Assembly (NCBI GenBank): GCA_017409875.1 | Contig: JAFQRW010000017.1 | Coordinates: 62,001 to 126,000, forward strand | Reading direction: 5' to 3' | Length of the DNA: 64,000 bases | Origin: Clostridia bacterium | GTDB lineage: Bacteria; Bacillota; Clostridia; RGIG6154 | Shown here: positions 1,360 through 6,684 of the stretch, in pieces | Layout of the letters: each line of letters opens with the position of its first letter | How positions within the stretch are numbered: position 1 is the stretch's first letter | The notes under the pieces: model-generated | Told to the model about the DNA's origin: nothing | Database searches by the model: none | Seen by the model: the letters and a program-made list of their open reading frames with translations, nothing else | Made by a program: the position numbers and the translations under genes

Positions 1360-1388
1360 TTGAAATTATATAAAAAATGTGTTATAAT
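1360..1388 (+). promoter_or_regulatory. Promoter of the yitT-family gene
   Basis: TTGAAA (1360-1365) and TATAAT (1383-1388) have 17-base spacing. The -10 box is the first conserved part of the leader element repeated at 2680-2770. Confidence 0.6.
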
Positions 1389-1475
1389 TGACACATACAG
1401 AATTTTATGAAATAAAATTCCTAAGAGCTAACGCTCTTTTGTTCTCTTGCGAGCACAGTGGTAATTGACGTCGCC
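1383..1475 (+). repeat. Leader element, copy 1
   Basis: This stretch upstream of the yitT-family gene can be aligned along about 90 bases with 2680-2770. Shared blocks are TATAATTGA, CATACAGA, a small hairpin of TTTTAT/ATAAAA, GCTCTTTTGTT and GAGCACA. In this copy the arms are GAATTTTAT/ATAAAATTC, AGAGC/GCTCT and CTC/GAG. The 350 bases before the gene contain no other recognisable gene. It could be a structured 5' leader or a dispersed repeat; the function is unknown. Confidence 0.5.
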
Positions 1476-1518
1476 TTTAAAATTGCATTTGCAAGCAAAT
1501 GTTTTTGCTGTTTTAAAG
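1475..1518 (+). other. Nested hairpin in the yitT leader
   Basis: CTTTAAAA (1475-1482) pairs with TTTTAAAG (1511-1518), and inside it CATTTGC (1486-1492) pairs with GCAAATG (1495-1501) around an AA loop. This could form in the transcript between leader element 1 and the gene. No T-tract follows, so it is not an obvious terminator. Confidence 0.5.
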
Positions 1519-1640
1519 TACAAGACTACATCCCTGCTTTTTGTTTTTAACCAGATACTAACAATTACTAAAACCATTGACATCTAAACAACATATCAAT
1601 TATATGAAAGACGATAAATAATTAAATTAAGGAGATAAAA

Positions 1641-2477
1641 ATGTCCAAAAGAAAAAGCATTATAATGACAATCCTAGGAACGATGACAACAGGCCTTGCA
1701 ATCGGCGTGTTTTTGACACCGAATAAGATTGTAGGTGGTGGAGCATCTGGTATTTCAACCATACTGTTTCATACAATAGGACTCCAACCCGGTGTCAGTT
1801 TTTATATAATAAATATTATTCTTCTTGTTATGGGTTTAAAACTTCTGGGTAAGAAGTTTGTGGGAGAAACCCTTTTGGGTGGACTTTTATTGTCATTTTT
1901 TATACAAGTGTTCTCGGTGGTGCCGATATATACTGAAAATTTGATTCTCTCAACAATTTTTGGCGGTGTTTTGTACGGGCTGGGAATAGGACTTGCCTTT
2001 GCGGCTGGTGCTTCAACCGGTGGAACAGATATTTTGGGAAGAATAATTCAAATCAAACTTCCACATATCCCGATAGGTAAACTGCTTCTGGCGGTTGACG
2101 GAGTTATTATTGCTGTTTCTGCATTTATATTTCGTGACATCGAGCTTGTTTTATACGGCATAATCGCTTTGTTTATAACAAGTTATGCCATAGATTGGGT
2201 AATCGACAAGTTGAATGTATCAAGAATTGCATTCGTAATAACAGATTATGGTGAAGAAATTTCTAAAAAGCTTATTTCAACATCACCACGGGGTGTAACA
2301 CAAATTGATGTTTATGGAACATATACCAACACGGATAAAAAAATGCTTTTCTGTGCATTAAAGGAAAGCGAAGCGGAGGAGTTTCAAAAGAAAATTCTTG
2401 AAATCGACCCTAAGGCATTTATCGTATTTTCGGAGTCGCAGAGAATCAAAGGAAAAGGATTTTATCTATATAAATAA
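1641..2477 (+). CDS. YitT family membrane protein
   Basis: A 278-residue integral membrane protein of the YitT family (two DUF161-like membrane units followed by a soluble DUF2179 domain). Residues 1-200 are strongly hydrophobic with several predicted helices, with conserved glycine-rich motifs GGGASGIS near residue 32 and AAGASTGGTDILG near 121. The C-terminal 80 residues, containing RGVTQIDVYGTYT, are the soluble DUF2179 part, which closes on KGKGFYLYK. Family members are widespread in Firmicutes and their transported substrate is not established. The start ATG has AAGGAG seven bases upstream. The gene is monocistronic as far as can be seen, with its own promoter at 1360 and a long, structured leader. 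Confidence 0.9.
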   Translation: MSKRKSIIMTILGTMTTGLAIGVFLTPNKIVGGGASGISTILFHTIGLQPGVSFYIINIILLVMGLKLLGKKFVGETLLGGLLLSFFIQVFSVVPIYTENLILSTIFGGVLYGLGIGLAFAAGASTGGTDILGRIIQIKLPHIPIGKLLLAVDGVIIAVSAFIFRDIELVLYGIIALFITSYAIDWVIDKLNVSRIAFVITDYGEEISKKLISTSPRGVTQIDVYGTYTNTDKKMLFCALKESEAEEFQKKILEIDPKAFIVFSESQRIKGKGFYLYK

Positions 2478-2600
2478 TTGAGAAGAATTAAGGGTATTAT
2501 TGCAGAGTATTGGAATGGTGGACTGATATCAAAAGAAGAGGGAGATTATCAAAAACTGCTTGACCAGGGCTTTGAAGCAATAAAAAGTATACTTGATTAA
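2478..2600 (+). pseudogene. Possible 40-residue remnant of an unrecognised gene
   Basis: Directly after the yitT stop, one frame stays open from TTG 2478 to TAA 2600 and reads like real protein: IIAEYWNGGLISKEEGDYQK and then LLDQGFEAIKSILD. There is no ribosome site and the frame begins at the previous stop, so it looks like the 3' tail of a lost gene or a chance frame. The family is not recognised. Confidence 0.25.
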
Positions 2601-2679
2601 ACTTTAGGACTATAAATTCATGATAAAGACCATTGCCAATTTATTAAATTTGATTGGCACACAGATTATACAGTCTTTG

Positions 2680-2770
2680 TATAATTGATGCATACAGAGT
2701 TTTATTACATAAAATTAATAGCACAAGCTCTTTTGTTGTCATTTGAGCACAACATCAATAGGCGACGTTG
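2680..2770 (+). repeat. Leader element, copy 2
   Basis: Second copy of the element at 1383-1475, here upstream of the YgjV-like gene. It starts with a TATAAT (2680-2685) that may be a -10 box, although no good -35 box lies at the right distance. Hairpin arms differ in sequence but largely persist: AGTTTTAT/ATAAAATT and GTTGT/ACAAC. It ends about 40 bases before the gene, whereas copy 1 ends about 165 bases before its gene. Confidence 0.5.
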
Positions 2771-2806: not shown

Positions 2807-3328
2807 ATGAAAACACTTGCTTATCTTTTAAGCGCTTTAGGTTTAATAGCAATGATTTTAGCATCCTTAACTAAGGGAGAGAAAATGAAGAGAATTCTTT
2901 TTCTCGTTTTTTGCAGGAATGCTTTAGTAGCAACAAGTTATCTTTTGTACGGCAAGGGTATTAACGGGGCAGCAGCTTGTTATCTTGCCGCACTTCAGTC
3001 TATTATAAACTATACATTTGAATCGAAGGGGAAGGATGTTCCCAAATGGCTTATATGTATTTATGCAATAGCAATTATTGTACTTAACATCTGGGTTGCA
3101 GGTGGAGTGACTGCACTTGGACTACTTGTAATTGTTGCATCTTTTACTTTCTTGATGTGTATTGGTCAGAAAAATGGTGCGAAGTATCGCATTTGGGTGT
3201 CTGTTAATATTTCTTTATGGTGCCTGTATGATATTTTATCAGGTTCATATAGCGCACTTGTTTCGCACATTCCATTGCTTATCTTTAATTTTGCGGGAAT
3301 GTTTATTTACGATAGAAAAAAGAAATAA
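2807..3328 (+). CDS. Small membrane protein, probable YgjV family
   Basis: A protein of 173 residues with about five or six hydrophobic segments, starting MKTLAYLLSALGLIAMI. The layout resembles the Imp-YgjV family of inner-membrane proteins (short helices; a cytoplasmic basic loop near residue 25, KGEKMKR; and a charged end, DRKKK). Function in that family is unknown. The start is placed at ATG 2807 because AGAGGG lies six bases upstream; an in-frame ATG at 2768 has no such site. It is preceded by leader element copy 2, shared with the yitT-family gene. Membership of YgjV is a judgement from overall pattern, not from a search. Confidence 0.55.
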   Translation: MKTLAYLLSALGLIAMILASLTKGEKMKRILFLVFCRNALVATSYLLYGKGINGAAACYLAALQSIINYTFESKGKDVPKWLICIYAIAIIVLNIWVAGGVTALGLLVIVASFTFLMCIGQKNGAKYRIWVSVNISLWCLYDILSGSYSALVSHIPLLIFNFAGMFIYDRKKK

Positions 3329-6115: not shown

Positions 6116-6684
6116 TTATTGGAATTACAGGCGGAAGCGGCACGGGAAAAACAGCTGTTTCCCTATGCTTTGAAAAGCACGGATATTTTATTATTGATGC
6201 AGATAAAGTCGCTCACAAGGTGATGGACCGAAAAAGTCCCTGCTTAAAAGAGGTTATAGATTTTTTCGGACATGAGTATTTAAATCAGGGCGGGACTTTA
6301 AATCGTAAAAAACTGGGAGAAAAGGTTTTTAAAAACAAGGATTTACTTGAAAACCTTAATAAAATCACGCATAAGTATATAAAAAGAGAAATAGAATTTT
6401 TAGCACATAACAGTTCTGAAACTGTTATTGATGCTGCACTGCTTTTTGAAAGCGGCCTTGATAAGCTTTGTCAAAAAGTAGTATTTGTATCATGTCCTGA
6501 GGATATAAGAATTAAAAGAATTGTATCGCGTGACGGTGTAAGCAAAAAATATGCAACTTCAAGAATAAAGGCACAAAAAACTGATGAATTTTACAGACAA
6601 AGGTGCGATTATGAAATAGTTAATGACGGAGAACAAAATATTGCTTTAAAGGTAGAGGAGATTTTGGCTTGTTTAAAGGATTGA
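6112..6684 (+). CDS. coaE: Dephospho-CoA kinase
   Basis: Last step of coenzyme A synthesis: ATP phosphorylates dephospho-CoA on the ribose 3' hydroxyl. The 190-residue length is normal. The P-loop GGSGTGKT is at residues 7-14, IIDADKVAHKVM follows as the CoA-binding motif, and VIDAALLFESGLD is the conserved second motif. The ATG overlaps the polA stop (ATGA), and polA-coaE adjacency is common in Firmicutes. The 3' end overlaps the next gene by 16 bases. Confidence 0.95.
   Translation: MIIGITGGSGTGKTAVSLCFEKHGYFIIDADKVAHKVMDRKSPCLKEVIDFFGHEYLNQGGTLNRKKLGEKVFKNKDLLENLNKITHKYIKREIEFLAHNSSETVIDAALLFESGLDKLCQKVVFVSCPEDIRIKRIVSRDGVSKKYATSRIKAQKTDEFYRQRCDYEIVNDGEQNIALKVEEILACLKD

Follow-up and report, generated by a model that had tools for sequence, protein, structure and literature searches.

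Two related leaders in the window

Within the window, which is the whole 64,000-nt stretch of Clostridia bacterium DNA that was analysed, a yitT-family gene and a ygjV-like gene each follow a structured sequence whose first bases are TATAAT (Table 1). The two copies align as direct repeats of 37 nt (86%) and 36 nt (78%) at 1383-1457 and 2680-2751. A covariance model built from seven copies of the source genome, with both window copies belonging to its training set, returned copy 1 with an E-value of 1e-18 and copy 2 with 1.3e-13, while the third-best match within the window was a sub-hairpin only (E 0.27). Repeat alignment and covariance model thus confirm that the look-alike stretches pointed out in an earlier note on this DNA are real and belong to one family. 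The copies extend a little beyond the roughly 90 bases given there, with copy 1 running on into a degenerate tail hairpin to about position 1518. This hairpin was read from the sequence and set beside the intact tails of three other copies of the same genome (C10, C7 and C10r), which extend into GGCGTCG(C/T)AAAAATGCCCTT(G/T)CAAGCAAGCATTTTTACTC with minor variations. The assignment of both downstream genes to membrane-protein families was borne out by Pfam.

Table 1 Coordinates of the two window copies, their parts and the adjoining genes.
Feature	Position	Strand	Basis or remark
-35 box TTGAAA	1360..1365	+	17 nt upstream of the copy 1 -10 box; from sequence
Left boundary of copy 1, -10 box TATAAT	1383..1388	+	from sequence
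Copy 1 cloverleaf	1383..1472	+	covariance model, 94.4 bits (training copy); structure counts
Copy 1 stems	P1 1386-1395/1457-1466, P2 1399-1421, P3 1423-1438, P4 1441-1456	+	
Degenerate tail hairpin, copy 1	1475..1518	+	CTTTAAAA...TTTTAAAG around GCATTTGCAAGCAAATG
yitT-family gene, downstream of copy 1	1641..2477	+	PF02588, E 2.8e-57; also PF10035
Left boundary of copy 2, -10 box TATAAT	2680..2685	+	lacks a -35 box 17 nt upstream
Copy 2 cloverleaf (tail hairpin missing)	2680..2766	+	covariance model, 71.4 bits (training copy)
Copy 2 P1	2683-2692/2751-2760	+	structure counts
ygjV-like gene, downstream of copy 2	2807..3328	+	PF10688, E 1e-12

The source genome (1.46 Mb, 23 contigs, the window being positions 62001-126000 of contig 16) holds eight copies according to the covariance model, seven of which were used to build it, and blastn with copy 1 located own copies on contigs 7, 8, 10 and 16. 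TATAAT opens all eight. Judged by eye, a TTG lies 17 nt before it in six of the eight full copies and in the partial copy C7:132422; it is missing in copy 2 and in own copy C7:77207. Other own copies precede a beta-lactamase-like gene and a tRNA-Ser gene, so that the link to YitT is not specific.

Elsewhere in the window, the 3' end of a tRNA-Lys gene at 1029-1053 is directly repeated (25 nt, 92%) 204 nt downstream at 1233-1257, and an inverted copy of GAGTTCGATTCTCC lies between the repeats at 1097-1110. This arrangement resembles a scar left by an integration event at the tRNA gene.

A covarying cloverleaf with a bulged tail

The seven own copies fold into a four-way junction made up of P1, in which AATTGACACA or variants of it pair with TGTGTCAATT, followed by P2, P3 and P4. 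In a MAFFT alignment of these copies (A3), 91.3% of the pair cells pair and 16 of the 32 pairs have changed on both sides, which was matched by none of 500 shuffles, and shifting the partners destroys the pairing signal. In P1 of copy 2, for instance, ATTGATG/CATCAAT compensates the TTGACAC/GTGTCAA of other copies. The hairpin arms that had been noticed to differ while still pairing are therefore genuine parts of this junction. A larger alignment (A4) of 43 model matches (38 distinct), for which 42 sources were chosen by hand as members of the window subfamily and fitted to the model, gives pair counts that for this reason lean towards structure: 95.8% of the cells pair, 24 of 32 pairs carry double changes (shuffles 0/500) and seven of the ten P1 pairs covary. 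The left TATAAT is invariant in all 43 of these aligned copies. Across the wider family, among units with a left TATAAT-like box, a left-end helix of at least 5 bp around exactly three hairpins was present in 88 of 113 vs 45 of 2260 dinucleotide shuffles. Behind the cloverleaf, intact copies carry a bulged hairpin with a conserved loop, CCCTTGCAAGCAAG; a bulge of 2 nt separates its basal stem from a short upper one.

Distribution of the family across Clostridia

A scan of species genomes with the tail hairpin (AAATGYCCTTNCAAGCAARCATTT) returned at least 117 stretches, and those among the matches listed were Clostridia or related Bacillota by title, mostly metagenome-assembled genomes (MAGs) from animal guts. 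In an even draw of 291 genomes of the class, the tail motif (18-nt core, at most one mismatch) occurred in 28, at least two of which (L189 and L201) are unlike the element, while the reversed control occurred in none; with one to five tail matches per genome, copy number is low. One weak model match in genome G029 (L068, E 0.05) was left out of the family. A TATAAT-like box stands at the left of 113 of 138 distinct tail copies and is lacking in the other 25. Viral contigs gave one match, L188, which shares its locus with L102 and L207, and searches of phage and plasmid collections for the element gave no match. Relatives are thus spread across Clostridia in addition to the own-genome copies. 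The intergenic repeat family that the earlier note had offered as one option is correct, and the covarying stems that it proposed to look for are present.

The unit is bordered by promoter boxes

The left end of each unit lies within an extended -10 box (TGNTATAAT). The TG of such a box is correctly placed in 93 of 113 copies, and a TTG 16-18 nt upstream was found in 67 of 113 copies, compared with 195 of the 994 TATAAT hexamers that these loci contain in total. Downstream of the tail hairpin, TGN and a -10-like hexamer occur again. In the window subfamily this near right box is degenerate (TAAAAT or TAGAAT), and a second exact TATAAT follows 40-52 nt past the tail in 20 of 32 copies (control 11/255). 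Partial or whole further units stand in tandem in some loci (L086, L095, L139, L175 and others). A TATAAT-type box flanks both sides, which might reflect a target-site duplication, although the identity of left and right also follows from tandem units. Unit size is about 115-130 bp in the main group, and the tandem period in the window subfamily is 161 bp (L172).

Units of about 115-161 bp and the empty sites described below make the element short, non-coding and mobile, as is expected of a miniature inverted-repeat transposable element (MITE). Terminal inverted repeats were not found: the right end consists of the hairpin and TGG/-10, and the left end has its P1 pairing partner in the interior of the unit. 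The possibility that the 5' strand of P1 is host target sequence was rejected, because TATAATTGACACAT is common to many copies at different loci and because empty sites differ from it in the bases after TATAAT. At six loci (L066, L083, L132, L173, L208 and L212), different hairpins (GATTTCATCGAAGATGAAATC, GAATTCAACGAAGTTGAATTC and others) stand directly after the far TATAAT, as if another repeat family shared that box.

Filled and empty sites

In genus g88, a filled locus at a minD-like gene was compared with sister genomes by blastn, where its two flanks proved contiguous with a 12-nt overlap. Among 16 genomes, this promoter is filled in two (G288 and G294), where the unit lies immediately 3' of TATGGTATAAT, and empty in 12, which have one TGNTATAAT and no unit. 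The remaining two (G297 and G296) are ambiguous: other short sequence occupies the site, and that of G297 resembles a relic of a unit's left end. The parA-like promoter, matched in 14 of the 16 genomes, is filled in two, empty in 11 and occupied by another insert in one. Here G106 carries two units and G297 one unit and part of a second; the units of the two genomes differ in sequence and both begin right after the same TATAAT. That one -10 box holds two different units speaks for separate insertions and against a long series of exact losses. The -35 and -10 boxes to the left are host sequence, already present in the empty sites.

For the window loci no empty site was found, there being no same-genus relatives among the genomes compared, and for the window subfamily no exact empty site was found in the G257, G064 or G275 genus; at the breakpoint in the G275 genus lies unrelated DNA. 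The window copies presumably arose by the same insertion route as those at the minD-like and parA-like genes.

At a shared site, L098 on the one hand and G294 (L254) and L110 on the other have P2 loops that are each other's exact reverse complement (TTGCAGAGCAA and TTGCTCTGCAA), which amounts to a hairpin inversion, and the second, partial unit at the parA-like site of G297 is likewise nearly inverted. At the parA-like promoter of G288 (L308), the -10 box and the gene are separated by about 150 nt of unrelated inserted DNA that contains short palindromes.

Downstream genes and orientation

Neighbouring genes were classed with a simple custom ORF caller for 94 copies with enough flank, 12 of which fell within an ORF and were left out. 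Among the remaining 82 intergenic copies the next gene is co-directional with the element in 73 and not so in nine; the gene upstream of those 73 is co-directional in 39 cases and divergent in 34. The copies are therefore not scattered at random relative to gene starts, the outcome that the earlier note had named as refuting its reading; insertion into promoters explains their position. The functions of these genes show no common theme: 63 downstream proteins matched 85 Pfam families, the commonest of which (ParA-like) was found in three. These 63 come from 70 distinct proteins, seven ORFs having been dropped by eye as dubious, shadow-like, very long or duplicate. The association with membrane-protein genes suggested by the two window copies thus does not extend to the family.

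A few copies stand before the same gene in distant genomes. On contig 8 an own copy, separated from the gene by a short ORF, precedes a YitT gene 65% identical to the one behind L180, and L081 precedes an MFS-like gene 72% identical to that behind the own partial copy. Both repeated insertion and old retention are possible at these sites.

Nature of the element

The copies form a family with covarying stems and tandem units, exact empty sites are present at two promoters, and the units point towards downstream genes of unrelated function. The best explanation is that the window stretches very probably represent two copies, since diverged, of a small structured insertion element of Clostridia, which is non-autonomous and has -10 boxes as its target. 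Counting against this reading are copy 2, which has neither tail nor -35 box, the low copy number per genome, the 25 tail copies that lack a left box, the failure to find a transposase (Y1 in g88) or an empty site for the window loci and their subfamily, and the copies before the same YitT and MFS genes in distant genomes.

The earlier note had also considered an undescribed riboswitch or an operator. A cis-regulatory RNA, for instance an attenuator or a riboswitch-like leader, that has its own promoter and was spread through duplication would account for the covarying stems, for the position before co-directional genes with a promoter at fixed distance, and for the presence before orthologous YitT and MFS genes elsewhere. 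It is nevertheless improbable: the downstream genes are unrelated, the element is missing from most orthologous promoters, copies occur in tandem, and the adjacent -10 box would leave the 5' strand of P1 untranscribed. Rfam offers no match either, with no match to the copies in the window at gathering scores and none of ten matches at E<=5 in eight other loci lying at the element. A riboswitch or operator of membrane proteins in particular was rejected, given the gene functions and the empty sites. An attC-like cassette site recombined by a tyrosine integrase would likewise be folded, covarying and found in tandem with direct repeats at its ends. The ends of attC sites carry the R' and R'' core sites GTTRRRY and RYYYAAC; such motifs stand at both ends in none of 113 copies, and six loci that were read contain no clear gene cassettes between units, which makes this reading very improbable.

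Perhaps, the insertion element was later kept in places as a useful promoter or leader module, an extension that is conceivable but that we consider rather doubtful. Copies retained at the same site with compensatory or inverted arms (L098/L110/L200 and L088/L158/L194) and the repeated occupation of the same promoters, as at the parA-like gene, would fit such domestication, and the shared YitT and MFS sites together with the same-site copies that retain pairing arms could reflect a function in place. The decayed remnant at the minD-like site (G297, possibly G296) speaks against it, as do the degenerate own copies, which point to decay.

A possible route of insertion

An insertion element of this kind would enter at extended -10 promoter boxes and, once in place, would be flanked by the host -35 and -10 immediately on the left and by a further -10-like box on the right. 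By targeting -10 boxes, its copies become the 5' leaders of whichever gene the promoter served. The 5' strand of P1 shares bases with the -10 box and with the six nucleotides that follow. With standard start spacing, RNA made from this promoter would therefore not include the strand. Read-through RNA from an upstream gene is disfavoured as the reason for P1, since divergent contexts keep P1 equally well: the figures are 24 of 27 junctions (mean 10.0 bp) with a divergent upstream gene and 27 of 33 (10.5 bp) with a co-directional one. The overlap with the -10 box and this equal retention suggest that P1 acts in DNA, most simply as a folded single strand.

In 95 of 105 scored copies the last bases of the P1 3' strand are ATT, the complement of AAT in the box, and through pairing this conserved ATT may contribute to recognition of the TATAAT target. 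Among the copies that lack TATAAT, those in L148, L149 and L184 have AATC at their left, and L149 and L184 have GATT in the 3' strand (P1'). A single-strand (HUH-type) enzyme supplied in trans might move the element. A Y1 transposase (Y1_Tnp, PF01797) was rejected as the mover in the one genus tested, as it does not track the element there: in draft genomes of g88 it occurs in one of five carriers and three of 11 non-carriers, though a foreign enzyme, or one missing from the assemblies, could still act. In its boldest form, which is speculative and on present evidence unlikely, the element would be promoter-hunting single-stranded DNA, whose cloverleaf exposes the P1' ATT as a guide that pairs with the unwound non-template -10 strand, so that it inserts in the transcription bubble and rebuilds an extended -10 box behind it. 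Transcription bubbles of active promoters would then be the insertion targets, and other subfamilies could use other guides, with an AATC target and GATT guide in L148/L149/L184 and a reversed target in L084/L117/L140/L160.

Comparison with known elements

In the open-licence PMC literature, including the parts of PMC3733652, PMC2864571, PMC3049150 and PMC10969869 that were covered, no description of the element was found. According to the available part of PMC6006769, a short guide at the foot of a hairpin pairs with the target beside the element end in IS200/IS605 elements. These and REP-type elements have a subterminal hairpin with a small bulge near the end, no terminal inverted repeats and a short internal stretch complementary to the target (parts of PMC6006769). 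The present element appears similar in these respects, its tail hairpin resembling theirs. Unlike IS200/IS605, however, the target here is the whole extended -10 box, the cloverleaf covaries, and no Y1 transposase tracks the element in g88. The REP tags GTAG and CGTC are not universal here either, the tail feet being GTCG in 34 and TTCG in 30 of 113 copies.

The element resembles pneumococcal BOX, RUP and SPRITE as short, interspersed, structured and likely parasitic repeats (parts of PMC3049150), but those are enriched between convergent genes, whereas the present element lies before co-directional genes and on -10 boxes. Correia elements and MITEs with promoters are, in the portion of PMC10969869 covered, also short mobile upstream repeats that bring or alter promoters; unlike them, the element described here has no terminal inverted repeats, and the -35 and -10 boxes on its left belong to the host. 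It differs from BOX/RUP and from Correia-type MITEs in targeting the -10 box and in having a covarying stem into which part of the target is incorporated.

We would thus be dealing with a mobile element that is widespread in uncultured gut Clostridia, apparently has no name so far, and has settled more than once in core promoters, those of parA-like and minD-like genes among them. It would be unusual among mobile DNA in targeting the -10 element itself and would readily supply new 5' leaders. The case also serves as a warning that covariation and a position before genes are insufficient to call a riboswitch, as both stem from an insertion element here.

Several further sequences came to light beside the family. 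In L104, L142 and L182 the same tail loop stands behind a single long hairpin, with no cloverleaf and no TATAAT; contigs of this type are from Lachnospiraceae, Blautia and others by title and carry a related short element. On the minus strand of L103 (about 6262-6285), a tail hairpin lies within the T-arm of an apparent tRNA-Leu, which is split by it and in which ARAGORN detects no tRNA; L174 and L115 may be similar. Gut-1 RNA (RF01706) is listed in part of PMC2864571 as known from human gut metagenomes only, and L076 (2109-2187, minus strand), from a Clostridia MAG, gave a near-threshold match to it (46 bits vs 50).
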